Assembly (NCBI GenBank): GCA_021792755.1
Contig: JAJYUA010000009.1
Span: 62,001-126,000, forward strand
DNA from: Pseudomonadota bacterium
Lineage (GTDB): Bacteria > Pseudomonadota > Gammaproteobacteria > Steroidobacterales > Steroidobacteraceae
Direction: 5' to 3'
Length of the DNA stretch: 64,000 nt
Positions 6,462 through 51,749 of the stretch are shown here, piece by piece. The notes under the pieces were generated by a model. It saw nothing but the letters and a program-made list of their open reading frames with translations. It searched no databases and had not been told where the DNA came from. The translations under genes and the position numbers were made by a program. Numbering within the stretch: the stretch's first letter is position 1; every line of letters starts with the position of its first letter.

Positions 6462-6566
6462 CCGGTTAAGACGAAAGGGTTGCTGGCCAAGACCGAGCTT
6501 AGCTATTCTGCCCGGGCTCGACAAGGCGGGCGAACGCCCGCACCCTCACAACTGCGTGGAGCCATC

Positions 6567-7487: not shown

Positions 7488-7490
7488 CTC

Positions 7491-34797: not shown

Positions 34798-34821
34798 CAG
34801 ACCTCCGGACATAGCGCCTTT
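34798..34821 (+). repeat. Left terminal inverted repeat of the IS
   Basis: This 24-base terminal repeat matches the right end with three mismatches (positions 10, 19 and 20). The first nine bases, CAGACCTCC, are identical at both ends. Confidence 0.8.
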
Positions 34822-34845
34822 GGAAAATGTCCGGTTTCGGGGTGG

Positions 34846-37227
34846 TCATGAGGCCGGGGCCGCGTTCGTGGCGCTGCGGTGGGCCGGTGTGCCTGGAAAG
34901 GCGAGACCGATGAGCGGCGCTGAACGTACGGCGAAGCGAAGTCGCAGCCGAGTGCCCGGGAAGGCGGTGGCGGTCTCGTTGAGAAGCTCGCAGAGGGCCT
35001 GCGCGGCGCGCGTTCGATGCGGGGAGCTCAAGGGCGCCAGGGTGATTTGCAGCTCCTCCTGAGTGAGGTGGATGTCGCCGGCGGCGGCGAACAGCTCGTG
35101 GAGGAGCGTCCGGCCCTCCTGCTCGGCCCGCGGGTAATGTGGCCGCAGGAGATTGAACAGATCGCTCTCGGCCTGGTAGGCGAGCATCTTGATGATGTCG
35201 GTCAGATGCTTGCGCTCGGTGGCGAGCTTGACGACGGTACGCTCGCTCAAGTCCCGGATCTGAACGCGCGCCGGAATACGGCGCCGCTTGTGCATGAGCT
35301 TGCGCAGATGCTTCCGGGCGACTCGTAGTTGTTGGCCGAGCGTGCCGTGGGCGATCTTGAAGCCGCGCATCGTCGGGCGGCGCTGCTCGGTGTTGTCGGC
35401 GGCGGCGGCCCCGTACTCACGCTCGATTTTAGCGAGTTCCGCCCGTGCGGCGCGGCACTGCTTCTCGAGCGCGCGTCGCTCGGGATTGGGAATGGTGCGG
35501 GTGGGGTCCTCCGGTTCGATCCGGTAGTCCACGAGCGCATCGAGAAGGAACTCCTCTCGCATGTACTTGAAGAAGTTCTCCTGCCGCCAACGATCGAACA
35601 TGCGATAAGCCACTTCGATGTCGCGCAGCTCCCAGCGACTGGTGATGATCTGGGTCTGATGGCCGCCCTCGCACAGGCGCGTGATCTGCCGCAGGCGCAG
35701 CTTCCCTTTCAGGAAGCGCACCGGCTGGTCATGCAGATCGTATGTCACCCAACGCCCATCGAGCTTGGCGCGGCGGCGTACGAAGCGCCGCTCGTTGACG
35801 AGCCGACCCTTGCCTTTGCGGTAGGTGAGGATATCGAAGCCCTGTTTGATCATGCTGCGGAACAGCTTCGGACTCCAGCCGCCGCGGTCAAAGACGATGG
35901 TCACCGGGCGTTCCCCGAGCGTCGCGCGCACCCGGCGCAGCAATTCGGGGAAGGCCTTGGCCAAGGAGGCATCCAGCTCTGCGGTGATCAGCAGCAGCGG
36001 ATCGCCGCCGCGATCGTTGATCCAGTAGTCGGTGGTGGCGGGCATCGCCAGATGGCGTCGCGCTACGTAAGCCTTGGAAATCGTGCGCTCCCCGTGATAG
36101 GCACGCACGTGGCCATCCACGTACAAGAACCCCATCAGCTCGCCGCGTTCGGCCACGCGCACCCGAGCCAGCTGCGCGCCCATTTGCTCGGCGCAATGAT
36201 GGGCGGCAAGACGGCCGAGCGCCCGCCTGAGGGTCTTGACCTCGGGCGCCCGGTCAAGCCCGAGGAGTCTGCCGAAGGTGGCCGGATCGCGCTCCTTGAG
36301 CTGCTCGGGGCGCTGCACGCGCAGCAACGCCATCAGGAACAGCGTCAGCAACGTCGTGCGTAGTCCGTAGAAGGCGGGCCCGATTCCCCCGTAGAGCTTA
36401 CGCGCGATGCGCAACACTCCGCTGTGCACCAGGAACGGTACGGCCAGCAGTGCGCCGAGGCCAGGGACCCGCTCACCGTCACGGAACATCGGTGCCGCAT
36501 CCTCGAGCAATCCCAGATACGCCATCTGCCGATCGCAGGTTCGATCGCTCGCGTCCTGGTCCAGACTCAGCGGCACCGGCTCCGCTTCCTCAGTGGTTTC
36601 CCCGACCATCCTCGCATCCACCGGCGCCACTATCGTCGCCGGCATAGCCAACGCAGGTTCGGCACCGTCTTCGCTCTCCGAGGTGCTTGACACGCTGCAC
36701 GCCAACGTCGGCGCCGCCGGCTCCCTGGCTACCGGCACGCTCACCGGGACCCAGGCCAGTTGCTCGAGCGGCTCGTCCCGTGAAGGCCCGACCAGCTTCC
36801 TGATCGCTTTCTCGTTCACACCCAGCCGCTGCGCAATCGCTCGGTTGCTCAGCCCTTGGGCTTTGAGCCTCTCGATCAGCCGCAACCGCTTACCAGAGAT
36901 CCGGCGCCGGCCGCGCCGCCATCCCTCGGGTCGGCCCAGTCCCACCATTCCCCCTGCGGCGTAACGCTCCTGGTGGCGGCGAATGGTGCGCTCGGTTCTG
37001 CCAAAGGCCCGCGCCAGCTCCGTCTGCTGAGCGAACCCACTGTCAACCAACATCACCATCGCATACGACTCAGCCACCGCATCGCCGGTGCAATAGTGAT
37101 ACACCGGCAGGCCCCCGACCACGATCACCCGCTGATCTCCCTCCGTGCGCACGGTGCAGCGCGCGTTGATGACCACGGTATCGGACGGGGCCACCGCGGG
37201 CAGGCCCAAGGCAAGCTGGCTGTTCAT
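34846..37227 (-). CDS. DDE transposase of the insertion sequence
   Basis: This transposase of about 793 residues has an N-terminal helix-turn-helix region (TELARAFGRTERTIRRHQER, LSNRAIAQRLGVNEKAIRKL) and a catalytic core with likely acidic residues in FLYVDGHVRAYHG and VTIVFDRGGWSPKLF. The later RWRQENFFKYMREEF resembles the R-E-K part of the IS4-type YREK signature. The C-terminal half is long and charged. I chose ATG 37227 (MNSQLALGLPAV); a further ATG at 37287 would extend the protein through one subterminal repeat. The gene appears intact, so the element may be active. Confidence 0.8.
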   Translation of the reverse strand: MNSQLALGLPAVAPSDTVVINARCTVRTEGDQRVIVVGGLPVYHYCTGDAVAESYAMVMLVDSGFAQQTELARAFGRTERTIRRHQERYAAGGMVGLGRPEGWRRGRRRISGKRLRLIERLKAQGLSNRAIAQRLGVNEKAIRKLVGPSRDEPLEQLAWVPVSVPVAREPAAPTLACSVSSTSESEDGAEPALAMPATIVAPVDARMVGETTEEAEPVPLSLDQDASDRTCDRQMAYLGLLEDAAPMFRDGERVPGLGALLAVPFLVHSGVLRIARKLYGGIGPAFYGLRTTLLTLFLMALLRVQRPEQLKERDPATFGRLLGLDRAPEVKTLRRALGRLAAHHCAEQMGAQLARVRVAERGELMGFLYVDGHVRAYHGERTISKAYVARRHLAMPATTDYWINDRGGDPLLLITAELDASLAKAFPELLRRVRATLGERPVTIVFDRGGWSPKLFRSMIKQGFDILTYRKGKGRLVNERRFVRRRAKLDGRWVTYDLHDQPVRFLKGKLRLRQITRLCEGGHQTQIITSRWELRDIEVAYRMFDRWRQENFFKYMREEFLLDALVDYRIEPEDPTRTIPNPERRALEKQCRAARAELAKIEREYGAAAADNTEQRRPTMRGFKIAHGTLGQQLRVARKHLRKLMHKRRRIPARVQIRDLSERTVVKLATERKHLTDIIKMLAYQAESDLFNLLRPHYPRAEQEGRTLLHELFAAAGDIHLTQEELQITLAPLSSPHRTRAAQALCELLNETATAFPGTRLRLRFAVRSAPLIGLAFPGTPAHRSATNAAPAS

Positions 37228-37239
37228 GCCCGCCAGCAG

Positions 37240-37342
37240 AACCGGACAGGTTTCGGTCCGCAACCTCCCGCCAAAAAGGCCCGCCATATCGGGGGCTTAC
37301 GTACCCTCAGGTCAAAAAACCGGACAGGTATTGGTCCGCACC
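37240..37342. repeat. Subterminal transposase-binding-like repeats
   Basis: Two direct copies of a motif beginning AACCGGACAGG and continuing to GGTCCGCA lie at 37240-37264 and 37318-37342, 78 bases apart. The inverse core TGTCCGGTT lies at 34829-34837 near the other end. Such subterminal copies usually bind the transposase. Confidence 0.55.
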
Positions 37343-37375
37343 CCCAGCGGCAAAACCCCCGACTTTCAGCCGCGG

Positions 37376-37399
37376 AAAGCGGCTATGTCAGGAGGTCTG
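37376..37399 (-). repeat. Right terminal inverted repeat of the IS
   Basis: Inverse partner of the left repeat (21 of 24 bases identical). It is followed immediately by the second AACTT target copy at 37400-37404. Confidence 0.8.
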
Positions 37400-37612: not shown

Positions 37613-38439
37613 GCAACGGCTGCTCGGGCTGTGCCAGGACGGGTGCGCATCAGGCAGCGCTGTCCCTTGGCGAGCACGGCGCGCGCAGGCGCACCGCGTC
37701 AGCCGCGCCTGCGCGGCCTTTCACGACGCCTGCCGCAGCTCAACCGCGACCACGGGATCATCGGAAACCGCCGCCACCGCCTCATCGGCTGGAACGGCCA
37801 CGAGGGTCGCAGCCGCTGCCGCATCGGCCTGGCGATCGGTGCTGCGAGAACGGAGGTGCCGCCGGAGAAAATTTGCCGCCGGCGGACACCGCCGTCCATG
37901 CCGTTCCTCGCAGGGGTTGTTCGAACCGCCCGGCGTCGGATCGCCTTGAGGCTCACTCGAGAATCACGGCGCAGTACAGGCATGACTGTCTCATTTTCGT
38001 CGATGTACCTCTGATGCTGCCCTGGTGGCACCCTCAAGCGCGTACGGCAATCACAGGGAAATTTCGGCTTCGAGTCTACCCCACGGTCCTCGGATGAAAT
38101 GAGTGGCGGGGATCCGCTCTCAATGATGCCATTTGCCATTGCGGTTCTCGCTCAAGACGAACCGCGTTTTGCCCTCAGGACGCCGGCTGCATCCGCAGTT
38201 GCGTGCCTGCGTCTGTCCTTGGGCAACGGCCTGCCGGTGTCGGTGGAGATCTCTCCGGGCGCACCAGCGGCGGTGGCGCGGGCGCTGGCGAGGCTCCGAT
38301 GCCGAAGCTCCCGTGCCGCACCCGCATCTTTTGAGTCGTGCGCACCGCTTCCGTTGGCAAACAAATAGTCGCGTTCCGCACTTTCACGCCCCGGTGTGTT
38401 TGATAGGATATCGCCGTCGATCGGACCTCCACCCGTCGG
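37613..38439. other. Gene-poor region downstream of the receptor
   Basis: About 830 bases without a supported gene. Several open frames of 80-150 codons exist on both strands but have no recognised domain, no convincing ribosome-binding site and overlap each other antisense. The stretch leads into a decayed transposase. Confidence 0.35.
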
Positions 38440-38700
38440 ACCGACATTGCGACGCTGCACCTCATGCTGCGTGGGCAGCAGCGGCCGATCGAGTCCTTGA
38501 AGGCGAACGTGCGCCGGCTCTTGAGGTGGCGGTTTGGGCCGAAGAGCATAGAGTGTCGCCGTCAATCAGTTCGGCCGGTTTGCCGACGGCAGCCTCGTGA
38601 TCGAGCAGACCGACGTGCCGCAAGAGCATAAGGCCTGCCGCGGCGGCCTGGAGCCGATTACCCGGGAGGCCCGCTCCGATGTCAACGGCTCTGACAGGGA
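38440..38700 (+). pseudogene. Decayed IS66-type transposase fragment
   Basis: The plus strand reads TDIATLHLMLRGQQRPIESL then KANVRRLLRWRFGPKSIE, which resembles the N-terminus of IS66 TnpC (IExLKxxLxxLRRxxFGxxSE). After a frame change, LVIEQTDVPQEHKACRGGLE follows, similar to the TnpC zinc-finger region (VIEP...C..CGG.L). The two parts are closer than in intact TnpC, and no start or stop fits. The remnant lies just downstream of the Wadjet operon. Confidence 0.35.
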
Positions 38701-38977
38701 GACGTCCCCGCTCACAGATCCGCCGGGTGTCGGGAACCGTGACCGCCCGACTGCGCGAGCGCAGCAGTGCCACCATGCGCGTAACGATTGCGGAGGCGGC
38801 TACGGTACGCGAGCCCCCGGAGGCAGCGGTGGTCAGCAACCCCGGGGCGCCGGCCGCCTGCGGCAGGGTACCACCGCTCGGCAGGAAGCGTCCCGCACAT
38901 CCGCCCGCAGGACACCTTGCACCATGGCTCACGCGCCCGCGTCGGCTGCAAGCGTCGCGGATACCCCGCAGGGCCGC
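38701..38977. other. Spacer between IS66-like remnant and jetD
   Basis: About 280 bases with no supported gene. It is probably the 3' flank of the Wadjet operon; no clear terminator hairpin was noticed. Confidence 0.3.
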
Positions 38978-40189
38978 TCATCCGTCCACCGGCGCGAGGC
39001 TCGCGAGCAGCATCTGCGCCACGGACTCCTCGTGCACCGCCAAAGCCCTTTCCGCCATGGTTGCGGCGAGCCTGGGATCCCACACCGCCTCGACACGACC
39101 GCTCGCGGGCAGCGGTGACCCGCCTGCCTCGCAGGCGGCAAGGTAATCGTCTGCGCCGAAGCGCCACGCCTGCGCCCCCAGTGCCCGGAGCAGGAAATTC
39201 CCGATCGTGAGTCCCGGCCAGTCGAAATCCCCGTGATAGCGTAGCCGCGCGCCGGCTGCGGCTAGGCCCTCGAGCAAGGTGCGCTGTGCGGCCGACGGCA
39301 TGCCGTCGGTACAGACCAGTGGTGCGCACCTGCCGCCCAGCCTGTCGGCCGCGATCGCGACGATGCTCGGGTTCTCGCACACGAAGACATCACGGCCCGC
39401 GACGGCCCACGCCGGAGGATCACGTAACAGCCTGCGCAACGAGAGATGGATGGGCTCGCCCGCCGTCAGCACGCCATCGGCAGGTTGCCGCACCGGCAGA
39501 TTGAGGCACAATGCCGGAGCGGCGAGCTCGTTCACGCTGACGCCGAGCTTTGCCCACTGCTCGCGCGGCCGATCGAGGCGATCCTCGCGCCGTGCGGCGG
39601 CACAAGCGTGCAACACCAGCGTGGCGACCGCGGATCCCGCATCGAGCGCATGCGAATCACCCAACGCCTGCGCGGCCAACTGGGCGAGCGGGATGCCATC
39701 CGCCGGCAATCTTGCTAGAACCCGTTGCGCCCGGGCAAGGATCGATTGCGCGCCGCCCGGATCGCGGCCGGCGAGCCGCTTGAGCAGCGCCGCGCCGCCC
39801 GGCTCGCCGACGACCGCTTTCAGCCTCGGCTCATGCGCTTCCTCCAGTGCCCGTTGCCACGCTTGCTCGCGCGCCTGCCGCTGCGCCTTCAAGTCCTCGA
39901 CGGGACCGTCGAGCATCTCGAGCGCACGGCGCAGGCTTGGCGCGAGCCCGGCGCGCGCGAGCGCTGCATCGAGTTCGGTCATGCGCAGGCGCATCGAGCC
40001 GGCCGACCTCACTGGCCGCCCCGTCAGTCCCTCCAGCGCGCGCCGCTCGGCGACATCCAGCCGCCCGAGTGTGAACTCCCCGCCTGGCGAGCCGCGCTCG
40101 TACCGGGAGCGCAATCGGCGGCGCAGCTCCGCAAGCTCCGGGCCGCCAAGCAGCCGCCGCAAGCGCTCGAGTCCGGCTCCTTGGTCCAT
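38978..40189 (-). CDS. jetD: Wadjet nuclease subunit JetD (TIGR02679 / DUF2399-DUF3323)
   Basis: This 403-residue protein matches the TIGR02679 family: an N-terminal DUF3323-like helical part (ERLRRLLGGPELAELRRRLR) and a C-terminal DUF2399 Toprim-like part. The likely acidic metal site is E272 (FVCENPSIVAIAAD) with D321 and D323 (YHGDFDWPGLTIGN), the E ... DxD pattern of Toprim nucleases and topoisomerases. In characterised Wadjet systems JetD is the nuclease that cuts plasmid DNA once the SMC complex has enclosed it. It is last in the operon, four bases after jetC. Confidence 0.88.
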   Translation of the reverse strand: MDQGAGLERLRRLLGGPELAELRRRLRSRYERGSPGGEFTLGRLDVAERRALEGLTGRPVRSAGSMRLRMTELDAALARAGLAPSLRRALEMLDGPVEDLKAQRQAREQAWQRALEEAHEPRLKAVVGEPGGAALLKRLAGRDPGGAQSILARAQRVLARLPADGIPLAQLAAQALGDSHALDAGSAVATLVLHACAAARREDRLDRPREQWAKLGVSVNELAAPALCLNLPVRQPADGVLTAGEPIHLSLRRLLRDPPAWAVAGRDVFVCENPSIVAIAADRLGGRCAPLVCTDGMPSAAQRTLLEGLAAAGARLRYHGDFDWPGLTIGNFLLRALGAQAWRFGADDYLAACEAGGSPLPASGRVEAVWDPRLAATMAERALAVHEESVAQMLLASLAPVDG

Positions 40190-40193
40190 GGCT

Positions 40194-43100
40194 TCACGCC
40201 GTCAGCTCGAGTTGTGTGTCGCCACGGGCTTTGGAAGCCGCTTCCGCGGCGCAGGCTTCCAGGGGTGGAAAGCGTCGCGCATGATCCTCCTCCCTGCGCC
40301 GCTCGCGGCCGTCCCACGTCCAGCGCGTCACCAGCACCGCGTCCATGCCTTCCCGGCGGATGAGCTGGCAGATCGCAAGTCCCGGCAGCTCCGGATAGCA
40401 ACCCCATTCCCGCTCGCTGGTCATCACGAAATCGAGATCGAACTCCCTGATCAGCGCCATGCAACCGGCGCGGGCCTCATCATCGATGCCGGCGAACGCC
40501 TCATCGAGCAGCACGAGTCTCGGGGCGTGCTCGTGCGCGCTCCAGTAGTGGCTGCTGGCACCGGCAAAAAGCGGCACCGTCAGGCCCAGTGCGCGCTCGC
40601 CGCTCGAGGCGGGTCCGGAAAGCGGCCGCCACTGCCTGTCTTGCTGGCGCTCGACGCGAAACCGGTGCCAGCGGCGATAGTCGAGCGCGCGCGCGAGGCC
40701 CTCGACGAGCGTGGATTGTTCCTCGCGCGCGCGCTCGGCGCTGATGCGGGCCTGGAGGAATTCGCCCACCTCGCGGCGGTCCTCCGGCGACCAGGCGTCG
40801 GGGTTGGTCTTCAGCAGCCGCTTGCGCGCCTCGATGAGGCCGGCGACCGACCCTTCCGTCTGCTCGGGCAGCGGCTGCCAGTCGAGCCGGAAGCGCACGC
40901 CTGTCGAGGTCGGACGCTTCTCGAGCTCGGCGTTGATGAGGCGCACCCGCTCCTCGGTCTCGATGATGCGGCGCTGGAGGTTGGCGGCGATCTCTTTCTC
41001 GAGGTGGCTCTCGAGGATCTCCCGCTCCTTCGCCGTCAGCGTGAGACGCCTCGCCTCGATGTCGCCGTCCAACAACTGGCGCAGCGTGTCGGGTCTTTGA
41101 GGACGCTCGTGGTAGAAGATGCTTACAGCCAATCCGTGGTCGCTGACATCGGCGCTGAGCTTGTGCCCCTGCGCGGACATGGCGGTCTGAAGCTCGGCGA
41201 GATCGCGGCTGATCGCGTTCTGAACCCGGTTCCAGGCCGGCTCGTCGGCCGTGACGTCGGCGAGCGCCTGCTCGGCCCGCCGCGCCGCAGCGAGCGCCGT
41301 CTCGATGCCCCAGGGAGCCGCCGGATCCGGCAGCGGCACGTCCGGCACCGCGACGCTGAAGAGGCCCGTCAGAGTTGCAAAAGCCTGCAGCTCATCGACC
41401 GCCTGCCGGCGCGCAGCGGCGCGCTCGGTGAGCTGCTCGCGCAGATCGTCGCGGTGCGTCTGCGCAGCGCCGTGCTCGCCGGTGGACTCGATCCACTGCC
41501 GCTGAGCACGCGTGTAAGCCGCCTTGTGCTCGTCCCGAGTTGAGTGGGCTAGCTTGAGATCGCGCAGCAGCTCCTCGACAGCCTTGCCTACCGATTCCTG
41601 CAGGACCGCGAGCGTCTCTTGCGCCTCGAGCAATATGCGTCGCTTGGCCGATCGGTCCTCGACAGTCGCCTCGGCGTCCAGTCGCGCCCGCGCTTCGCGC
41701 TCGAGCTGCAGCGCGAGCTCCTCCAGCGTGCCCTGATGTTCTCGGGCCGCGCTCACCAATTCGCCGGCCTCGAGACGGAATGCGTCCAGGCTCTCCGCCA
41801 GACGCTCGATTCCAGCCGCATCCCGAGGCAGGCGCAGACTCTGCGCATCGAGCTCGAGCGCATCCCGGGCGCGAGCGAGCGCATTCTCCGCCGACGCCAG
41901 CCTCGAATCCGCCTCGCCGAGGCTCTCCTGCGCCTGGCGGCGAACCTGCTCGGCCGCCGCCCGATCCGCGTGTGCCCGCAGAAGCGGATCATCGGACGGG
42001 CAGCTGTCCTGCTCGCGAGCGGCGCGCGCGCGCCGCTGATCGATCCGCGCGCCGACCCCGTCACACTCCTCGAGCGCGGCGGCGATTTCGCCGAGGCGTG
42101 TGAGAATTTCGCCGAGCCGGAATCGGCGCGCGGCTTCTCGCGCGGCGTGCCCGATATATCGGGCTTCCGGCTTGGTCCATGCGCCTCGAGCCGGCCCCAA
42201 TCGAAATTCGCCCCGGGGAGAGATCCATGCCTCGGCGATGTGCGGGTCCTCAACGCCGCAGACGATCGAGGCGAGGATCTCTTCGACGGTGCTTGGACTT
42301 ACCGCCGCCGCCGCACCCTCCGGCGGCGCCGTCGGGACCAGCCAGTCAGAAAGTGCCGGCTCGCAAACGGTGCGCGCCGTCAGCACCACATCATGCAAAG
42401 TAGACTCCCAGACCGTTCCGTCCGGCGTCACCCAGGCATCCAGCAGCCCCGACGCCTCGAGCGCCGCCTCGAGGCCCGCGCGGTCCGCCTCGGGCACCAC
42501 CGGCGAGAAGTCCACGAGTTGCCAGAGCGGTGCGCCCGCCCTTCCCGAGCGGCCCGCCGCGTCCCGGGCATGCGGCGCCGGCGGTGTGGGGGTCTCACCC
42601 GTTTCCAGCCGCAGCCGCTCCCTTTCGAGCTCGTCGCGCTCCAAACTCAACTGCTCGCGCCGCGCATCGAGTGCGGCTCTGCGCGCGGCGAGTTGCCGCT
42701 CATGCTCCTGCCAGGCCCGATTGACGGCCTGGCGCAGCGGGTTCGGGCCGCTCAGCGCCTCGACCCACAGCGTCAGCTCGCCGAGCAGATCTTCCGAGTC
42801 CGGTATCGAAAGTGCCTCCAGTGCGCTCACGTGAAGTCTCCACCCTCGGGCGAGCTGGGTGCCCGCCTCCTGCAGCGCGGCGAGGGCCTGGGCGGATCCC
42901 GCCGTCGCCGCCTCGAACCCCTCGGCGCGGCGCATCCGCTCGCTTCGTGCCGCCGAGCAGGCCTGATCGGCGGCGGCCGCCTCGCCAAGCCGCTTGCGAA
43001 CGACGGTCATCTGCTCGCGGCGCCGTGCTTCCGCACCTCGAACCTTGGCGCGCAAGTCATCGAGAAAGCGCCCGCCCGCCTCCTTCAGCCCGTCGGGAAA

Positions 43101-44375
43101 CCCGACCTGCGCAAGCGCGCGGGAATGCACCGCTTCGATGCCGCTCGACTGCGCAAGTTCGCAGACCCGCCGATCGAGCTCCACCAGGCGGGAGCGCGTG
43201 GCATCGGCCCTCTGCCGGCGCCGTGCCGCTGCCTCCTCCTCCAGAGACAGGCGGGAGTGCGCCGTGGCCACCCGCTTCTCCGCTTCTTCAAAGCTTGCGA
43301 GACACTCCGCCGCCCGTTGCTGTGCGTCGGCGATCCGCCGCGCATCCCGCATGGTTGGATGGGTCTCGAGCACGCTGATCCGCTGAGCGTCGGCGGCGAG
43401 CTGCGCATCGAGTCTCTCGGTTTCCGCACGCCATTGCGTTACCGCGGCTGTAGCGCGCTCGAGCGCCGCCTCGGCCGCGCTCAACTGCCGGCTGGACTCG
43501 TCGAAAGCCGTCTGCGACTGACGGAGCACCCGGGCTCGGCGCCTCGTGGCCACTTGCGCATAGCGCTGATAGCGCTCGCCGAACGCCGAGACCGCCTTGC
43601 GCATGGCCTCGAGTTCCTCGAGCTCCCGGCGCAGCTCCTCGAGCTGTGCCATCGCGTCCGCGACCACCTCGAGCGCGTCACGGTCAAGAGGCGTCAGCGC
43701 CTCGGTGAGCGCGTCTGACAGTCGATCCTCGTCCGGTTGCTTCGATAGCTGGGGCTGACGAAGCTGGATCAGGGTGTTGACGAGCGCCGCGTAGCGCTCG
43801 TTGCCGAGCCGGAACAGCCGTTCGTCCACGGCTCGTTTGTAATCCTGCGCGGTCTGGAAGACGTGTCCGCGCTCACCAATGGCCTCGACGAGCCGTTCCC
43901 GGGTAAGCGCCGTCTTTTGCGCAGTCGTGAGCCACAAGTCCGCGCCGATCCGCTGCTCGGTCAGAAAATACCAGGCGTCGACCCCGCTGCGCCCCGCCAC
44001 GGCGCGCAGTCCGCAACCCAGTGTCAGGATCACTGCATTGCCTGCCTCATCGATCCGCCCGAGCTCGAGCCAAGTGTAGCCGATGCGCCTCTCGAACCGC
44101 CCGCCCATCAGCAGGTTCCACTCCATGCGCTTGTTGCGATCACCATCCGGCTCGATGCGCGCCGGCGTGAGATTGGCGTCGAGCAGAAACGGCAGGGTGA
44201 GCGAAAGCACCTTCGACTTGCCGGTCCCGTTGTTGCCACGCAGCAGAAGATGGCCGTCGCGAAACCAGAACTCCTCGACGTCGTAATGGTACAGCTCCAC
44301 CAGCCCGAGGCGCAGCGGCTGCCACCTGTGCCGTGCCGGCTGTGGCAGATCGATCGATGGCGCCCCGGATGTCAT
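40194..44375 (-). CDS. jetC: Wadjet SMC-like ATPase JetC (TIGR02680)
   Basis: This 1,393-residue SMC/MukB-like ATPase has Walker A GNNGTGKS at residues 47-54, long coiled-coil stretches rich in Glu, Arg, Ala and Leu through the middle (for example QLSLERDELERERLRLETGE), and a C-terminal head with signature SGERALGLTVPLFAGASSHY and Walker B LVLLDEAFAGIDDEARAGCM. It matches the TIGR02680 family. In Wadjet it extrudes DNA loops and senses closed circles. The ATG at 44375 overlaps the jetB stop by four bases (ATGA). A longer frame upstream runs through jetB and is not real. Confidence 0.92.
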   Translation of the reverse strand: MTSGAPSIDLPQPARHRWQPLRLGLVELYHYDVEEFWFRDGHLLLRGNNGTGKSKVLSLTLPFLLDANLTPARIEPDGDRNKRMEWNLLMGGRFERRIGYTWLELGRIDEAGNAVILTLGCGLRAVAGRSGVDAWYFLTEQRIGADLWLTTAQKTALTRERLVEAIGERGHVFQTAQDYKRAVDERLFRLGNERYAALVNTLIQLRQPQLSKQPDEDRLSDALTEALTPLDRDALEVVADAMAQLEELRRELEELEAMRKAVSAFGERYQRYAQVATRRRARVLRQSQTAFDESSRQLSAAEAALERATAAVTQWRAETERLDAQLAADAQRISVLETHPTMRDARRIADAQQRAAECLASFEEAEKRVATAHSRLSLEEEAAARRRQRADATRSRLVELDRRVCELAQSSGIEAVHSRALAQVGFPDGLKEAGGRFLDDLRAKVRGAEARRREQMTVVRKRLGEAAAADQACSAARSERMRRAEGFEAATAGSAQALAALQEAGTQLARGWRLHVSALEALSIPDSEDLLGELTLWVEALSGPNPLRQAVNRAWQEHERQLAARRAALDARREQLSLERDELERERLRLETGETPTPPAPHARDAAGRSGRAGAPLWQLVDFSPVVPEADRAGLEAALEASGLLDAWVTPDGTVWESTLHDVVLTARTVCEPALSDWLVPTAPPEGAAAAVSPSTVEEILASIVCGVEDPHIAEAWISPRGEFRLGPARGAWTKPEARYIGHAAREAARRFRLGEILTRLGEIAAALEECDGVGARIDQRRARAAREQDSCPSDDPLLRAHADRAAAEQVRRQAQESLGEADSRLASAENALARARDALELDAQSLRLPRDAAGIERLAESLDAFRLEAGELVSAAREHQGTLEELALQLEREARARLDAEATVEDRSAKRRILLEAQETLAVLQESVGKAVEELLRDLKLAHSTRDEHKAAYTRAQRQWIESTGEHGAAQTHRDDLREQLTERAAARRQAVDELQAFATLTGLFSVAVPDVPLPDPAAPWGIETALAAARRAEQALADVTADEPAWNRVQNAISRDLAELQTAMSAQGHKLSADVSDHGLAVSIFYHERPQRPDTLRQLLDGDIEARRLTLTAKEREILESHLEKEIAANLQRRIIETEERVRLINAELEKRPTSTGVRFRLDWQPLPEQTEGSVAGLIEARKRLLKTNPDAWSPEDRREVGEFLQARISAERAREEQSTLVEGLARALDYRRWHRFRVERQQDRQWRPLSGPASSGERALGLTVPLFAGASSHYWSAHEHAPRLVLLDEAFAGIDDEARAGCMALIREFDLDFVMTSEREWGCYPELPGLAICQLIRREGMDAVLVTRWTWDGRERRREEDHARRFPPLEACAAEAASKARGDTQLELTA

Positions 44376-45583
44376 ACGGCCGCTTGCTCCCGCCGGCGTG
44401 CCTCGCGCACGGCATAGCGCATGAGCGCCGGACGCGCCCAGACACTGCCTTGCACCTTGCGCACCAAGTTCAGCGCTTCGAGACACTCGATCGCCTGGGC
44501 CGCCAGTTCGGCCTCTGCGCCGGGCGCGCGGGCCTCCTTTCGCCAGTAGCGGCCGTACCGGTCTGCCGCCGTGCGCAGGTAGGCGGCCAGCTCGTGCATC
44601 GAATGCAGCCGCTGAGGCTCGTCCCGCGAGGCCGCCGCCAGATGCTCGGCAAGCAGCAGCGTCGCATGTGCCAGGGTGCCGACCGCGGGCAGCTGCCGAT
44701 CCGACAGCTCGCCTTCCTCGTCGACCAGCGCCAGGCCTTCGAAGCGCAGCTCCGGCACCAGGCCAGCGGCGGTCGCCAGGCGCGCCGCCATAGGTCCGCG
44801 CTGACTCATCATGTATTGGCGCTCCTCCTCGGTAAGTTCGTCGTGATAGACCACCGGATCGTCGAGGAGCTGGCGGCTCAGACGGTGCCGCAGCGCCGTC
44901 CGCCGCCCCTCCGTCGTGTCGGGAACATACTCTTCGACCAATGCCGCCAATACGTGCTCCAGCCCGAGCCGCTCGCCGGCCGCGGCCGCAGCGATGAGAC
45001 TCGCGCCGCGCGGGCTTGCAGGCAACGTAGCGAGGATCCTGCGGTTCACGTCGTAGAGCACATCGCCGGTGCGATTGACATACGTCTCCTCGTCTCCGGC
45101 GACGCGCGACAGCGCGCCGTGCCCCAGAAGAAAGCGACACACCTGAACGAGCGCCCGGCGGTGATGATGCGACTCGAGGGTGAATTCGAATCCGCGCTGT
45201 CCGAGCTGCGGGTCCGCCGCGGCATCGAGGAGCTGCTCGCCAAGCCGCCGCAGGGTAATCTGGGACTCACCGCGCTCCAGCACCGAGCAAACGAGGCAGA
45301 GAAGCGCGTAACGCTCCCGGTCGAAGTCGGGCAGCCCGCGGGTACCATCGGCCGTGTTGGCAGGCGTCTTGTAAAGACGCGCGAAACCGCGCTCGACATG
45401 AAGGCGCCATCCGCTCTCGCGCGCAAGCCAGTCGCGCAAATGATCGGCGTGTCGGCGCACGAGCGCATACTCCTCGCTGCCTCCGGCAAGGAGGGGGCGC
45501 ATCAGGAGAGCACGCAGAGCGCGCTCGCGTTCGTCTTCCGCCTGGCGCGTCAGGACGTCGGTCAAGCCAAGCTCCTGACCCAT
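44372..45583 (-). CDS. jetB: Wadjet subunit JetB (TIGR02678 / DUF2398)
   Basis: This 403-residue protein matches the TIGR02678 family. Family-like stretches include ERERALRALLMRPLLAGGSE, LPDFDRERYALLCLVCSVLE, and GDVLYDVNRRILATLPASP. It is the kite-like or winged-helix subunit that bridges the SMC heads with JetA, comparable to MukE. It starts three bases after jetA ends and overlaps jetC by four bases, so the proteins are made together in set ratios. No truncation is visible. Confidence 0.87.
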   Translation of the reverse strand: MGQELGLTDVLTRQAEDERERALRALLMRPLLAGGSEEYALVRRHADHLRDWLARESGWRLHVERGFARLYKTPANTADGTRGLPDFDRERYALLCLVCSVLERGESQITLRRLGEQLLDAAADPQLGQRGFEFTLESHHHRRALVQVCRFLLGHGALSRVAGDEETYVNRTGDVLYDVNRRILATLPASPRGASLIAAAAAGERLGLEHVLAALVEEYVPDTTEGRRTALRHRLSRQLLDDPVVYHDELTEEERQYMMSQRGPMAARLATAAGLVPELRFEGLALVDEEGELSDRQLPAVGTLAHATLLLAEHLAAASRDEPQRLHSMHELAAYLRTAADRYGRYWRKEARAPGAEAELAAQAIECLEALNLVRKVQGSVWARPALMRYAVREARRREQAAV

Positions 45584-45586
45584 GGC

Positions 45587-47101
45587 CTAAGACTCCCGAA
45601 TCGTAATGAGGTGGTCCCGCCCCGCGAACCACCCGAGCTCCGTCTCGATCTTCGCCTGTTGAGCGTTCTCGAGCGGCTCGAGCCGGACGAGCAGCGTACC
45701 GTCACCCGTCAGGCGCTCGACCGGTCTGTCCGGATGGGTCTGCGAGGCCAGCGCCTCCCCGAGCAGTGTCAGAAAGAGCCGGAAAGCGTGCCGGTCGAGG
45801 ACCCCGAGCTCGGAAAGCCGGATTGGGCTGCCCGTGGCGAGGCGGCGCCGGGCCGCCTGCGTCTGGGCGGACTCCTCCGCGACGCGCGCGGCAAGTTGCG
45901 CTCGCTCGGCTGATCGATCCCTGATCCGTGGTGGGGCCCCGCGCGTCGGCAGGACACCTTGCTCGCGAAGCTGCGGGAAGACTTCAATCGGCGGGGCGTC
46001 CTTCCACGAGACGGAGGTGCCGACATCGCGTTCCCTCGGCGCGAGAGCCAGATGACGGGCCGGCGACAGTGCGAAGGCTGCACGCCACAGCCGGTGCGCC
46101 TCGTCATTGCCGCTCGCCTCGAGAAACCAGAGCGCCAGGCGCCGGAAGTCCGCCGCGCGATCGCTTCGGCCGGCTCTGCGCTCGTTCAGCGCGGCGACGG
46201 CCTGCAACAGCCGGGGAATGGCGGCGAGCGCGCTCTTGCGCAAAAGCTCCGCCTGCGAGTAGCCCCGGCCCTCGGAGAGAAACCAGCGCCTGAGCCCCGC
46301 CCAGCGCTCCCGCCAGGCGGTCAGCCGCGCCGCCGCGGACTGCTCCTGCGCCTCGGCGTCCCCCGGGGCGACATCGCGCGCCTCGCGCCCGACCGCCACC
46401 TCGAGCAGCGCAGACTCTTTCGGTACGAGCAGCGCGAGCAGCTCGACGATCTGGCTCGAGCGCGTCACCAGATCGCCGATGAAGCGCTCGAGGTAATCGA
46501 TCAGACGCGATTTGAAGCTCATCACCACGCCGGCCTCGGCCCGCGCCAGGTCGATCGAGCGGGAGAGGCCCGTCATGAAGGCCTCGGCGTTGGCGGCAAG
46601 ACCCTCGAAAACATGCACGAGATCGCGCAACGTCGCGTGGATCTTGGCCGCATCCATCGGCTCTTCGCGCGAGAGCTCGGAGAGCGCGAGCAGCCTCGCC
46701 CGGATATCCTCGAGCGCCACGGATTGCAGCTCGGCGCGCCGCGCGAGCGTGGCGACGAAGACCCTCAATCCCGCCTCGACCGCCTCGCCCCCGGATGTCA
46801 GCCGGTAAAGAAGACGCTTGCGATAGAAGTCCTCGATGGTGGCGACCCGCGCCGTATCGGGCTGCGCTTGCAGATTCCCCCACTCGACCAGCTGCGCCAG
46901 CGCCTGCTGCGCCTCCTCGAGAGAGGGTCTCTCGTGCGGCCAGCACGCCTCGAGAAGCACCTCATCGGGCCGCAGATGATGGCGGAACTGGCGCCTGGCC
47001 GCCGCGAAGAGGTCCATGATTGCTCGATAGACCGCCGCCTTCTCAGCCGTCACGTGGCTGAAAAGGCTCGAAGCGCAGGCGGGTAGCTCGGTAGTCGGCA
47101 T
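45587..47101 (-). CDS. jetA: Wadjet subunit JetA (TIGR02677 / DUF2397)
   Basis: This 504-residue protein matches the TIGR02677 family, with VTAEKAAVYRAIMDLFAAAR near the start, a winged-helix-like region (EEAQQALAQLVEWGNLQAQP, then RVATIEDFYRKRLLYRLTSG), and LERFIGDLVTRSSQIVELLA in the helical middle. JetA is the kleisin-like subunit (comparable to MukF) that links JetB and JetC. It is the first gene of the operon. ATG 47101 (MPTTELPACASSLFSHV) is chosen because upstream codons read as remnant transposon sequence. No ribosome-binding site stands out. Confidence 0.87.
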   Translation of the reverse strand: MPTTELPACASSLFSHVTAEKAAVYRAIMDLFAAARRQFRHHLRPDEVLLEACWPHERPSLEEAQQALAQLVEWGNLQAQPDTARVATIEDFYRKRLLYRLTSGGEAVEAGLRVFVATLARRAELQSVALEDIRARLLALSELSREEPMDAAKIHATLRDLVHVFEGLAANAEAFMTGLSRSIDLARAEAGVVMSFKSRLIDYLERFIGDLVTRSSQIVELLALLVPKESALLEVAVGREARDVAPGDAEAQEQSAAARLTAWRERWAGLRRWFLSEGRGYSQAELLRKSALAAIPRLLQAVAALNERRAGRSDRAADFRRLALWFLEASGNDEAHRLWRAAFALSPARHLALAPRERDVGTSVSWKDAPPIEVFPQLREQGVLPTRGAPPRIRDRSAERAQLAARVAEESAQTQAARRRLATGSPIRLSELGVLDRHAFRLFLTLLGEALASQTHPDRPVERLTGDGTLLVRLEPLENAQQAKIETELGWFAGRDHLITIRES

Positions 47102-47487
47102 GTGGCCTATTTTGGCATGATTCCCGGGATTCGATGTGCCGAGGCGAGCCGGACAAGCGGCGCGCTTGGCTGCCCGAAGCCTTCCCGACCTCGAGTTCCG
47201 TGATGTCGGCCGGCTGCATCTCGAACCGCAGCCGCAATGCCGTACACGAGATGGGCTCGAGAGCGCGCCGAAGGTCACCTGAACCGTCTGCAACACTGCA
47301 GCCCTCCCCACACGAGTCGCGGGCACCGATCGAGGAACTGCTCGCTCGCACGCGAGCCCTGTTCGGACGAGACCTGGCGTTTGTCGGCGAATTCCGGCTC
47401 GACGAACGGGTCGACCAATGGCGCCGCGCGCCGCTGTCCGATCGCGCGCCGGCGAGAATGCGCCGGGCGAGCTCGCGGGCAGACCGG
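47102..47487. other. Upstream flank of the Wadjet operon
   Basis: About 390 bases between jetA and a decayed transposase. It must hold the operon promoter. Frames here read partly as arginine-rich sequence that may be the decayed end of the ISL3-like transposase; nothing is supported as a gene. Confidence 0.35.
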
Positions 47488-47920
47488 TCATGTGAGCGAG
47501 CAGACGCGCGAGCTCGGCGCGGCGTGCGCCGCGAGCTTGCCGCCTTCGCTCGGCAGTACCGAATGCAGCCCCTTGGGGCGCGGCTCAAGCCGCTGCCTAA
47601 GCCGGCGCATCGCGCCGGTTGCCTCGTCAACCGCTCCGGAGGCACGAGCGATCGGGTGGAATTCGTCGACGATGATCCGGACGTTGCACAACTGCGTCGC
47701 TGACGCTGTGGATGAAGCTCATCGATATGTCGACGCTGATCGACTCGATTTGACCGGGTTTGACACGGCGGGGCCGCAGATTCGCGGCGAAGGCCTCGGC
47801 GGGGGCGGCTTCCTTGCCCGCAGCGAGGTCGATCTGCCGCCGCCGCGCCCCATCCTGGTCCGCAGCGGCGAGGACCGTGACGCAGGCGTGACCTTTGGCG
47901 CGGGAGGACCCAATGGCGTG
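47488..47920 (-). pseudogene. Frameshifted ISL3-type transposase remnant
   Basis: The minus strand reads KGHACVTVLAAADQDG, then DLAAGKEAAPAEAFAANLRP and KPGQIESISVDISMSFIHSV, which fits the ISL3 (IS204/IS1001/IS1165) DDE core (GHxYVTVxADxD...IExVxxDMSxxFI). A frameshift near 47690 leads into NVRIIVDEFHPIARASGAVD followed by EATGAMRR and KGLHSVLPSEGGKLAAHA, the next conserved block (IVFDxFHVxxxAxEAVDEVRR...KGLxxxLL). Both acidic positions are still readable, but the frame is broken and the ends are gone. It flanks the Wadjet operon upstream. Confidence 0.6.
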
Positions 47921-48153
47921 CCGGCTGTCGGACTTCGCCGGGGCCGGCCTCGCCGTGCGCCTCGCCTTTATTCTTGGCGTTTGCACAGGGACCTGACCTG
48001 ACGGCCCGCAGCCCGGTCATGCACACCGCTCGGCGGCGCAACTGAGCGCGTTGATGGCCGATGCGGATCTGAAAGTACCCCCCCTGGGGGCAGAATCAGA
48101 GTAAACTATCGCTGGAATCTATCCTCCCAACGCGACGTGACCAAGGATTCTGA
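47921..48153. other. Spacer before the small-protein pair
   Basis: About 230 bases that may include the far end of the decayed transposase. A short GC palindrome (CCCCCTGGGGG) lies near 48090. It probably holds the promoter for the two genes that follow. Confidence 0.3.
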
Positions 48154-48330
48154 GTGGCAAAACCGAACTACCGCCTGGCAAAAAAGCAGAAGGAGCAAAA
48201 CAGGGTCGCGCGCAAGCTCGAGAAGCAGAAGCGTCGGTCGGCCCGCACGAGCGGCCCCGAAGCGAGCGTGGGGTCGTTGCAGGATCCGCCGGCCGGCCCT
48301 GGTGATCCAACGCCCATGGGCGGAGCATGA
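48154..48330 (+). CDS. Small basic protein (MAKPNY family)
   Basis: This 58-residue protein starts with GTG at 48154 and begins MAKPNYRLAKKQKEQNRVAR, followed by KLEKQKRRSARTSG. Short proteins that begin MAKPNYxxxKRQRExxKKKK are common conserved hypotheticals in proteobacteria. The start follows CCAAGGATTC, a usable ribosome-binding site. The first half is very basic and probably helical, which suggests binding to nucleic acid or ribosome; the tail is disordered. Its stop overlaps the next start by four bases (ATGA). Function unknown. Confidence 0.65.
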   Translation: MAKPNYRLAKKQKEQNRVARKLEKQKRRSARTSGPEASVGSLQDPPAGPGDPTPMGGA

Positions 48331-48731
48331 GGCTCAGCCACATCCGCGGAACCGCCACCCGTCAGGATCGCTCGTCCCAGCTTCGTCGAGACCAGGAGGC
48401 GGCGCCGAAGCTTCGCACGATGTTCCCGATGGTAGAACAGCTGCGCTTTGATCTGCACTTCGAGGGTGGCGGCGCGAGTACGCCGGTGTGCCAAACGCGT
48501 GTCCTACACCCACCGGCCCGCGCGTACTTCTTGTTTCCATGCCCGTACAGTGACTGCGATGGCTGGTTCGACCTGGCCACAGTGGTGCACGCGGCCGTGG
48601 GTGACCCGTCGCATCGGGTTGACGGCGTGCTTGAATGCGCCGGATTGCGTGGCGGCAACTTCACATCGAAGTTGCCGTGTTGCCTGCACCTTCGCTTCAC
48701 GCTCACGGCCGTCTGCTCGCCGGCCCACTGA
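48327..48731 (+). CDS. Conserved hypothetical cysteine-containing protein
   Basis: This 134-residue protein starts at the ATG that overlaps the upstream stop. The N-terminal 35 residues are variable; the core begins EQLRFDLHFEGGGASTPVCQ and continues PPARAYFLFPCPYSDCDGWF, with DLATVVHAAVGDPSHRVDGV, an ECAGLR motif and SKLPCCLHLRFTLTAVC. The Cys pairs (PCPYSDCDG, and ECAG with PCC) suggest a bound metal ion. I recognise no characterised domain. The coupling to the small basic protein suggests a shared role. Confidence 0.6.
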   Translation: MRLSHIRGTATRQDRSSQLRRDQEAAPKLRTMFPMVEQLRFDLHFEGGGASTPVCQTRVLHPPARAYFLFPCPYSDCDGWFDLATVVHAAVGDPSHRVDGVLECAGLRGGNFTSKLPCCLHLRFTLTAVCSPAH

Positions 48732-48737
48732 CCGCCC

Positions 48738-49154
48738 CTATTTGCGACGGCCTGGGGTGACCGCCGCGGCTGCCGCTTGCGGCCGTGTGAAGTCGATAAC
48801 AAAACGATCTCCATCAAACTGCGCCACCTTACCCACCAGATCCGGGCGGACGTAATAGCCCCCGGCCTTGCCTGACTTTTCCCGCTCCGGGAAGGTGACA
48901 ACCATCCGGACCGGCAGATCGCCGTCGCGCGCTTGCGTCAGATGCTCGCTCAGGGTTCTGACCACCCCGGCTCCGGCCTGCGCAGCGGACAGGCAGGTCT
49001 CGTAGCGCAAGACTCCACGGCCGGGGCGGGAAAAATGCGCCAGCCGGCAGTTGATCACCATGGCGCCGTCCGTCGCCATCGCCGAAAGGCTGCCCAGCCG
49101 GCTGGCCGGCTTGGCGCCGAACTTGCCAAACGCATCGAACAGGGAAAGATTCAT
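48738..49154 (-). CDS. Hypothetical protein
   Basis: This 138-residue protein begins MNLSLFDAFGKFGAKPASRL and shows mixed alpha/beta character (AMVINCRLAHFSRPGRGVLR, HLTQARDGDLPVRMVVTFPE, GKVAQFDGDRFVIDFTRPQA). It ends in a basic tail. No catalytic motif, signal peptide or membrane helix is visible, and I recognise no family. The ATG at 49154 starts the part with protein-like codon use; upstream the frame is low complexity. It converges on the previous gene with a 6-base gap. Confidence 0.6.
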   Translation of the reverse strand: MNLSLFDAFGKFGAKPASRLGSLSAMATDGAMVINCRLAHFSRPGRGVLRYETCLSAAQAGAGVVRTLSEHLTQARDGDLPVRMVVTFPEREKSGKAGGYYVRPDLVGKVAQFDGDRFVIDFTRPQAAAAAVTPGRRK

Positions 49155-49727
49155 CACGCGTTTCGGCTCCTGGGTCTGGCTTCTTGGGAAAGAGGCTGGC
49201 TGCGGCACTCGCGCAACCAGAACCACCGGCATGTACGATTCGATCCGCCCTGCCGCAGCGTGACGCCGGGCGCGACGCCAACCTCTGGCCATGCCTGCGC
49301 GGAGGTCAAAGTGATCGTCGCAAGCGATACCCGTCGGCACGCTCGTCCCGACGCCGCCAGGGCTCATCATGCGGCAGCACTCGCCGCAGGCACCCGCGAA
49401 TGACGAGCGCCGCCCAGGACATAGCTCACATGTTTGGCTCCACACTCTTCCGGAGCCAACTCTTGCTAGCATGCGCGCACTTCAACGCCGGCGCAAGCGA
49501 TGACCTATGGCGACCGCCCGCCCCGGAGCACAAAAGTTTGGCAGCCCGCTTCCGATGCTGTATTCTATCTGACGGATCGTATCTTTTCGGCTTGACTGCC
49601 TTGGCGTCACGCGTAGCCATCCGGCACGCCCCTCCTGCCAACCTCTGCCAGCCGCGCAAAGCTTAGCGAACCAAGTCGCAGGGCATGCCTGCCGCTCCAT
49701 AGTGTTTTCTTTCAAGAGTATTCCGCA
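49155..49727. other. Intergenic region upstream of the RRM gene
   Basis: These 573 bases lie between divergent genes. I see no supported gene. The last 150 bases are more AT-rich than the surroundings, which fits a long leader or regulatory region for the RRM gene. Confidence 0.35.
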
Positions 49728-50015
49728 TTGACGAAATTATACGTTGGAAATCTCCCCTTTACGGCGACCGACGAAGCCGTGAGCGCCCTATTCTCCAAGC
49801 ACGGAACGGTCGAAAAAGTCTCCATGATCACCGACCGCGAGACGGGTAGACCGCGCGGCTTCGGCTTCGTGGAGATGTCGAGCGCCGATGCATCGCGGGC
49901 GATGCAGGCGCTGAATGGCGCCGACTTTGACGGCCGTCCGCTCAGAGTGAACGAGGCGCAGGACCGCGAACGTTCCGGCGGCGGCAACCGCAACGGCGGT
50001 GCGCGCCGCTACTGA
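49728..50015 (+). CDS. RRM-type RNA-binding protein
   Basis: This 95-residue protein is one RNA recognition motif plus a short glycine- and arginine-rich tail. RNP2 is KLYVGNL (residues 3-9) and RNP1 is RGFGFVEM (near residues 43-50), both with the aromatic residues that stack on RNA bases. The tail (RSGGGNRNGGARRY) is typical of bacterial RRM proteins. It should bind single-stranded RNA, perhaps as a cold-adaptation chaperone. The start is TTG at 49728 (MTKLYVG); an AAGAG motif lies upstream. A strong terminator-like hairpin follows. Confidence 0.9.
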   Translation: MTKLYVGNLPFTATDEAVSALFSKHGTVEKVSMITDRETGRPRGFGFVEMSSADASRAMQALNGADFDGRPLRVNEAQDRERSGGGNRNGGARRY

Positions 50016-50035
50016 CACATTGCATCAATCAGCGC

Positions 50036-50064
50036 CCGCTCCCGGCCGCCACGGCCGGGAGCGG
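50036..50064 (+). terminator. Perfect 13-bp hairpin after the RRM gene
   Basis: The stem CCGCTCCCGGCCG / CGGCCGGGAGCGG is perfect with a three-base loop, starting 21 bases after the RRM stop. A moderately T-rich stretch follows. This is very likely a factor-independent terminator. Confidence 0.7.
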
Positions 50065-50097
50065 TACGCTGTGTGTCGTTGTCGCGAGGTCCGACCC

Positions 50098-50385
50098 ATG
50101 GCTTGGCGCAAGACTGGACTCTACCGCTCCGCCGAGGAAATTCGGGTCATGACTTGCGACGTCTGCGAGCGCGACGTCGGCTTCGAGGACGGGCGGCGAC
50201 CGCAGCAACATTTCCGGGTGAGCCTTCATCCCAACCCGGGAGCGATCGATGATCAGGAGGCGCCTGCGATCATTTGTTCCCGCGAATGTCTGCGCGCGTT
50301 TGCAGCCAATGTCACGGGGCCGGTCCGCGCATCTTCGCCGCAGAGGGGTGGCGGCGCCGTGAGCAAGCCGGATCGCGGCGGGTGA
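50098..50385 (+). CDS. Small zinc-binding hypothetical protein
   Basis: This 95-residue protein begins MAWRKTGLYRSAEEIRVMTC and has a likely zinc site from two cysteine pairs, CDVCERDVGFEDG (CxxC) and IICSRECLRAF (CxxxC). A beta-like QQHFRVSLHPNP lies between them. The tail is rich in Gly, Pro and Arg and looks disordered. I recognise no named family. It lies just after the RRM terminator and 80 bases before a DUF4279 gene on the same strand. Confidence 0.55.
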   Translation: MAWRKTGLYRSAEEIRVMTCDVCERDVGFEDGRRPQQHFRVSLHPNPGAIDDQEAPAIICSRECLRAFAANVTGPVRASSPQRGGGAVSKPDRGG

Positions 50386-50465
50386 GTGCAGCACCCTAGG
50401 AGTGCGCGCGACCTCGAGGCGGGCTCGCAGCCGCCGTCCGGCCAACTGCCCGAACGCACACTCCC

Positions 50466-50921
50466 ATGAGCGAGTACGAGTTCACCGTCTCCCTGCGAAT
50501 CCGTCATCCGACAATCGACCCGATGGCGGTCACTGAGGCGCTCGGCATTCAGCCGCAGCACTGCTGGCGCGCAGGCCAACCGCGCTGCGACAGCGCAGGC
50601 GCGAAGCTCGGGGGCGCGCATCACGACAGCTACTGGATGGGGCGGTTGATGGCCGAGCCACAGCTCTCGTGCAGCGGCGTTTCGGTGGAAAGGGTGATTC
50701 TCGCGGCACTCAGTCACATGCGGCGCGCACAGGCCTTCCTCGAGCGGCTGAGCGACGAGGGCGGCGTCGCGGAGTTGCTGGTGAGTCTTTATGCGCGCGA
50801 CGTCTTCAGGCTCGAGCTCCCGCCGGACGCCCTGACCCTGCTCGGCAGACTGCATTTCGCGGTGGCACTCGACGTTCATCCTCACTCACCGCTCAACTCT
50901 CAGCCATCGAGAACGAATTGA
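50466..50921 (+). CDS. DUF4279 domain-containing protein
   Basis: This 151-residue protein matches the DUF4279 pattern: an N-terminal strand then EYEFTVSLRIRHPTIDPMAV, TEALGIQPQHCWRAGQPRC, and DSYWMGRL. DUF4279 proteins occur in toxin-immunity and other settings, but their biochemical role is unknown. The ATG at 50466 starts in the same strand as the zinc-binding gene. No toxin gene is visible nearby. Confidence 0.75.
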   Translation: MSEYEFTVSLRIRHPTIDPMAVTEALGIQPQHCWRAGQPRCDSAGAKLGGAHHDSYWMGRLMAEPQLSCSGVSVERVILAALSHMRRAQAFLERLSDEGGVAELLVSLYARDVFRLELPPDALTLLGRLHFAVALDVHPHSPLNSQPSRTN

Positions 50922-51294
50922 CGCGCCTACCGCCAAAAGCGTCATGGCCGCCGTCAGAACGGGCGAAGGCAGAATTGCCTGCGCCCACGTCATTGCCGTC
51001 TACTTCACCGCCGCCGCCGGACAACGTTTGCGATATCGCAGAAGCCTTGCTCGAACTTCCCATGGCACACGTTGTGCGATACCCGCGGCCGCCATCGCGC
51101 CGGAAGGGCTGTGGGATCGTGAACGGCGGCACAGCGGCTGTGAGGGATGCTTGCATCGGCCTCGAACCCCATGAGGCGAGCGCCGCTCGACTCAGCTGCG
51201 GCCGGCACCGCCCGCCGCCCGGCTTCACACCGTCGGCGACGCTGTCGGACGGGAGCGCCCGCACGCAACAGCGTCCGAGAATCGAGCGCGCCGG
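50922..51294. other. Intergenic region after the DUF4279 gene
   Basis: About 370 bases with no supported gene. Frames here are short, low-complexity or antisense, and I saw no clear repeat or hairpin. Confidence 0.35.
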
Positions 51295-51660
51295 GTGATC
51301 ACGCTCACCTTCAGGGCGCTGAGCAACGACTCCATGATCTTCGTTCGCGGCACATATTTCAGGATTTGTGCCGACGCGACGCTTCGCGGACCCGACAACG
51401 CCGTAGCGGCCAACTATACCGACGGTCTCTGGCACGTGGCGCGAAAGCAACATAGAGTGCTCGAGTGCCGCGCGGCAGTATACCTTCGCGTGACGACCCC
51501 CGACGGGCGACGCAAGAGCATAGGACCCTATGAGCATCTAAAAGTGACGGGCGGAGAGATCTTCTCGAACGACACCTACCTCGGCGCGCACACCCGCAAA
51601 GAGTCACGCTTACCGCAAATCGACCTCTGGAGCGAGATTGCTCTCCTCTCCGACGGTTGA
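51295..51660 (+). CDS. Hypothetical protein
   Basis: This protein of up to 121 residues starts with GTG at 51295 (MITLTFRALSNDSMIFVRGT) and has a compact beta-like core (TYFRICADATLRGPDN, DGLWHVARKQHRVLECRAAV, YLRVTTPDGRRKSIGPYEHL). It ends in SEIALLSDG. I recognise no family, signal peptide or catalytic motif. Codon use and amino-acid balance look like a real gene, but no ribosome-binding site is clear and an internal ATG at 51334 is an alternative start. Confidence 0.5.
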   Translation: MITLTFRALSNDSMIFVRGTYFRICADATLRGPDNAVAANYTDGLWHVARKQHRVLECRAAVYLRVTTPDGRRKSIGPYEHLKVTGGEIFSNDTYLGAHTRKESRLPQIDLWSEIALLSDG

Positions 51661-51749
51661 GCGACGGCTTTGCCTCGGCACATCGGCCGCCAAGGATCCG
51701 GTCAATCGCCTGATTCCGGCCTACTCACCGCGCGATCTGCTCACCCGCG

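Follow-up and report, generated by a model that had tools for sequence, protein, structure and literature searches.

Does the four-gene operon at 38978-47101 of the window, by which we mean the whole 64,000-nucleotide stretch of Steroidobacteraceae DNA analysed here, encode a complete Wadjet system, of which type, and is restriction of plasmids its likely role? The genome from which the window comes comprises 3.76 Mb in 57 contigs. The initial annotation of this DNA had called the locus a complete Wadjet anti-plasmid operon and had left its subtype open between II and III. Both the observation and the interpretation are supported by our analysis, with plasmid restriction as a predicted activity, and the operon very probably encodes a complete Wadjet system of type II that is most likely functional. 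Direct support comes from the four genes and their families, the intact reading frames, the ATPase and nuclease residues, a hinge resembling that of the structure 9qe0, and purifying selection.

Gene content and subtype of the operon

The operon lies on the minus strand and reads jetA-jetB-jetC-jetD. Translation of the window gives a kleisin-like subunit of 504 aa from jetA (45587-47101), a KITE-like subunit of 403 aa from jetB (44372-45583), an SMC ATPase of 1393 aa from jetC (40194-44375) and a Toprim nuclease of 403 aa from jetD (38978-40189), all on the minus strand and all with zero internal stops. The genes are closely packed, with a gap of 3 bases between jetA and jetB (45584-45586), an overlap of 4 bases between jetB and jetC (44372-44375) and a gap of 4 bases between jetC and jetD (40190-40193), so that strand, order and spacing are all as the initial annotation had given them. 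A contig scan with six peptide patterns yielded 29 related loci, and by tblastn 27 of the 29 match every one of the four genes, arranged A-B-C-D, with jetA truncated at the end of the contig in L012. The other two are L023, where the contig stops within jetC, and L015, where jetA and jetB gave no match. The start of jetA at 47101 is supported by the equal length of 504 aa found in L002, L003, L005, L006 and L023. We found no sigma-70-like promoter in 38400-48200 (0, against a mean of 0.3 in shuffles), which says little because the DNA is 66.6% GC.

The four products had been assigned to TIGR02677, TIGR02678, TIGR02680 and TIGR02679, and an HMM search against NCBIfam bears this out. Over nearly the whole profile in each case, JetA scores 533.6 bits against TIGR02677 (cut-off 165.85), JetB 374.5 bits against TIGR02678 (cut-off 124.65), JetC 1323.9 bits against TIGR02680 (cut-off 462.85) and JetD 382.4 bits against TIGR02679 (cut-off 196), that is, 2.9 to 3.2 times the cut-off for the first three and 1.95 times for TIGR02679. 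These matches are far beyond chance. In Pfam, JetA matches PF09660 (DUF2397), JetB PF09661 (DUF2398), JetC SbcC_Walker_B, and JetD both PF11796 and PF09664 (DUF3323 and DUF2399), and thus the window contains the four-gene set of type II Wadjet, namely DUF2397, DUF2398, SMC and DUF2399. Our literature search returned nothing joining Wadjet with DUF2397, and for TIGR02680 nothing related.

PADLOC likewise calls all four proteins Wadjet, and the best model is of type II each time (JetA2 with 602.8 bits, JetB2 with 431.7, JetC2 with 1412.5 and JetD2 with 441.6). Since all four top models are of type II, the subtype is type II. Type I was rejected, as the best JetC1 score is 22.8 bits against 1412.5 for JetC2; the type I matches in PADLOC are weak JetC1 ones only (E 5.9e-6, 7.4e-6 and 6.4e-4), and the type I JetD domains, DUF3322 and DUF2220, were not found in the window JetD, which carries DUF3323 and DUF2399. 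Type III was also rejected, with none of the JetA3-JetD3 models matching at E 0.001. Lastly, the PDB contains a type II complex from Neobacillus vireti, nvJET (9qe0/9qe1, a Wadjet-II JetABC dimer), which JetA, JetB and JetC all match by sequence. With phmmer, JetC matches chain A (JetC) of 9qe0 at E 1.5e-83, JetA matches chain E (JetA) at E 1.4e-28 and JetB matches chain D (JetB) at E 2.3e-8. The nvJET complex is by these searches the nearest solved relative of the three proteins, although a distant one, and its structures are of JetABC, with no JetD chain matched.

ATPase and nuclease residues

The Walker A, signature and Walker B motifs that had been noted in the ATPase are present, and they are nearly invariant across 27 aligned JetC proteins. 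The Walker A sequence GNNGTGKS at 47-54 and the Walker B residues D1291 and E1292 are invariant, and the signature SSGER at 1257-1261 is so except for S1258; in all, 304 positions are invariant across the 27, the ATPase motifs among them. The alignment comprises the window JetC and 26 relatives, with L006, L023, L025, L033, L034 and L039 omitted beforehand and L031 and L032 absent because the start-codon rule gave short frames. A model of the JetC hinge (residues 560-880; pLDDT 86.6, pTM 0.55) was built from an alignment containing 16 of the 26 JetC relatives, L015 being dropped for an X. Chain A of 9qe0 is its first Foldseek match (E 1.6e-11), with the yeast Smc2-Smc4 hinge further down (E 7.6e-4), and identity to 9qe0 in the Foldseek alignment is 19-20%. 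As the nvJET hinge is reported to be channel-less (PMC12647877), it should be kept in mind that our comparison with it was made through a monomer model.

In JetD, the initial annotation had pointed to a Toprim-like acid set of the form E ... DxD. These acids are at the positions claimed for them, E272, D321 and D323, and are invariant in 22 of 22 aligned JetD, as are C271, N273, H319, E387 and E388. The 22 sequences comprise the window JetD, those of L031 and L032, and 19 of the 28 from the named loci, and in L008, L014, L021 and L027 the start of JetD was picked inside the frame. A JetD model built from the 22 sequences (pLDDT 88.4, pTM 0.73) suggests a nuclease fold like that of the type I JetD of Pseudomonas aeruginosa (7til, E 1.3e-5) and of MksG of Corynebacterium glutamicum (8b7f, E 1.9e-5), which provide the first three Foldseek matches, while the match to topoisomerase VI subunit A is weaker (E 0.016-0.018). 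The TM-scores to the three best matches are only 0.29-0.33 by query length, perhaps due to a differing domain orientation, and because of these low scores we base the assignment of the fold on the E-value and the probability. In contrast to the likeness in predicted fold, phmmer gave no match of JetD to 7til or 8b7f, nor to any other PDB entry, and the domains differ as well, being DUF3323 and DUF2399 in the window JetD and DUF3322 and DUF2220 in theirs, as given in PMC10123090.

The metal ligands described for MksG are E236 and D279, with Y258 as proposed nucleophile and E349/E351 proposed as alternatives (PMC10123090). By our own comparison, E236 and D279 probably correspond to E272 and D321 of the window JetD, and the counterparts of E349/E351 are perhaps the invariant E387/E388. 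In contrast to MksG with its Y258, the segment from E272 to D321 has no tyrosine shared by all 22 JetD; a nearby tyrosine, Y318, is H in L011, L015 and L021. One account of Wadjet describes the CAP domain of JetD as being without the topoisomerase tyrosine (PMC10586767).

Proposed mode of action

According to PMC10586767, two JetABC motors translocate in opposite directions and their collision on a small circle leads to cutting by JetD, while linear or very large DNA (plasmids above ~100 kb) escapes. Loop extrusion, recognition of circles and restriction of plasmids are activities that we infer for the window from type I systems and from the Neobacillus vireti type II complex. By this analogy, the kleisin JetA, the KITE protein JetB and the SMC ATPase JetC would assemble into a dimeric motor for ATP-driven extrusion of DNA loops. 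Where the DNA is a small closed circle, both motors would exhaust it and meet, and their meeting would free the Toprim nuclease JetD from an inhibited state, whereupon the circle would be cut. An effect at the cellular level has been reported for Clostridium cellulovorans, where deletion of jetABCD gave 2.42 x 10^-3 transconjugants per recipient against ~10^-8 to 10^-7 reported for the wild type (PMC12287153).

Type II and type III complexes may recognise different substrates (PMC10586767), and the main target here might accordingly be phage or another mobile element instead of plasmids. We consider this quite unlikely, however, because the type II complex nvJET is reported to cleave naked circular DNA, the obstacles tested not being bypassed (PMC12647877). 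Plasmid restriction is the activity that we favour, and we also looked for JetC on plasmids themselves. Relatives of JetC occur on 25 of 72,556 plasmid records (taken regardless of topology), in no record does a single place cover 80% of the query, and among the matches listed, which cover 15 of the 25 records, all plasmids are at least 148,985 bases long. Their large size fits with the reported escape of plasmids above ~100 kb (PMC10586767).

Distribution, neighbouring DNA and selection

Within the genus, the distribution of the operon is patchy. Of 60 genomes searched, 5 contain a TIGR02680 match above the cut-off, namely the source genome, 4 of 36 congeners and 0 of 23 from other genera of the order, and matches in four further genomes of the genus fall below it. 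For TIGR02677, and hence jetA, the cut-off is passed in 10 of 58 congeneric genomes, counting the source genome, with one more under it. This pattern bears on whether the complex mainly organises the chromosome in the manner of MksBEF or MukBEF, with defence as a secondary role. JetA, JetB and JetC are condensin-like, JetC also scores weakly against SMC_prok_B of NCBIfam (20.4 bits, where the cut-off is 567.35), and MksBEF, which has probably arisen by loss of JetD, is reported to aid chromosome organisation in Pseudomonas aeruginosa (PMC10586767). A housekeeping gene would, however, be expected to be near-universal; a Pfam search at E 0.001 matched none of the four Jet proteins to a Muk family, and jetD is intact with its acids conserved. 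On the grounds of the patchy distribution and the intact jetD, we judge a housekeeping condensin very unlikely.

The nearest relatives are all in genomes of the window's genus: L002 (MAG DBS2-1.bin82, G067), L005 (clean1778, G076) and L006 (YS5.bin55, G029); L023 corresponds to G068. Their jetABCD have the same order, and each protein has 75-91% amino acid identity to its window counterpart, jetC of L006 excluded. In L006, jetC is in two frames (5305-9481, the same locus as L071 in G029), while jetA, jetB and jetD are full length, and this split may be either a real break or an assembly error. By blastn, the block of ~8.2 kb shared with L002 spans 39002-47209 of the window, and the matches to L005 and L006 span 39002-47164 and 39006-47124. 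The flanks have no match in L006 and are not collinear in L002 and L005. A shared block between divergent flanks would fit with the operon being gained and lost as a unit. No empty insertion site was found among six fetched genomes of the genus with the TonB-receptor gene and the right flank from six genomes: both sides of the receptor gene are present, without the insertion sequence described below, in L059, L060, L062, L063 and L064 and on the upstream side only in L061, and the right flank (48.1-51.7 kb) is on other contigs in six fetched genomes.

In the neighbouring DNA, of which we annotated 20 ORFs from 32 to 64 kb with Pfam, an insertion sequence at 34798-37399 encodes an 813-aa transposase (Transposase_29) and interrupts a TonB-dependent receptor gene starting at 32483; by eye, its ends read as inverted repeats of 18 bases that differ at one position, and the 5-base repeat AACTT lies on either side. 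Downstream of jetD, a stretch of ~275 bases (38330-38605) has complete or partial counterparts, 76-84% identical, at six sites spread over five genomes of the genus, two of these sites being in G065. On the other side, 48093-51668 encodes an RNA-recognition-motif protein at 49728-50015, and its DNA matches many places in the genus, among them the Wadjet contigs of L002 and L005, where pieces of it lie in other arrangements that are not collinear with the window. A scan for a defence island with PADLOC on 10 neighbouring ORFs gave only weak matches of a regulator at 60629-61336 to HTH_VI, capH and RmrA (16.8-31.9 bits) and no match at E 0.001 for the other nine. The 64-kb window contains no tRNA and no match to Rfam at gathering score.

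All four genes are under purifying selection, with dN/dS of 0.12-0.30 against the three nearest relatives. Against L002, L005 and L006, the ratio is 0.127-0.144 for jetA, 0.123-0.135 for jetB and 0.285-0.296 for jetD, and for jetC, compared with L002 and L005 only, it is 0.162-0.174. The ratio for jetD is thus about twice that of jetA and jetB at this distance. Against the more distant L003 and L004, where dS exceeds 1.3, the ratios of jetD (0.231 and 0.258) are on a par with those of jetC (0.251 and 0.243). In pairwise counts, dN is 0.093-0.164 and 0.118-0.159 in the two parts of JetD, and the higher ratio of the N-terminal part arises from a lower dS, its dN being close to that of the C-terminal part. 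The JetC hinge, counted in the same manner with two relatives, has dN of 0.108 and 0.142 against 0.028 and 0.042 in the N-terminal head. Its dN is similar to that of jetD. These pairwise counts show that all parts are constrained, JetD and the hinge the least. That the operon is decaying or inactive is extremely unlikely, for although loss does occur among relatives (L006 has a split jetC, L025 a broken one with a 571-aa frame and two matches, and in L015 tblastn found neither jetA nor jetB next to jetC), the window has four open full-length frames, intact motifs and purifying selection.

We also observed type II Wadjet in the gene order C-A-B-D in the same genus, at L058 2888-11046 (G026) and L074 4981-13249 (G065). 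The G026 proteins have 29-33% identity to those of the window over the aligned parts, JetC over 255 residues only, and the G026 JetD retains the E and DxD acids. A further group, in G003, G011 and G071, is at 38-47% identity. It is conceivable, though unlikely, that at least three divergent type II lineages (the window's group, that of G003, G011 and G071, and the C-A-B-D one in G026 and G065) come and go in this one gammaproteobacterial genus and that JetD and the JetC hinge are their fastest-changing parts, as would be expected if both were targets of plasmid- or phage-borne inhibitors.

The window operon belongs to a described class, is ordinary within it and is annotated by standard models; by itself it alters nothing known. 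It contributes a clean example of type II Wadjet in a genus of which the members named here (L002, L005, L006 and L023) are metagenome-assembled genomes. As most Wadjet research was on type I as of 2023, according to PMC10586767, the intact type II sets, at 75-91% mutual identity, could serve comparative work.
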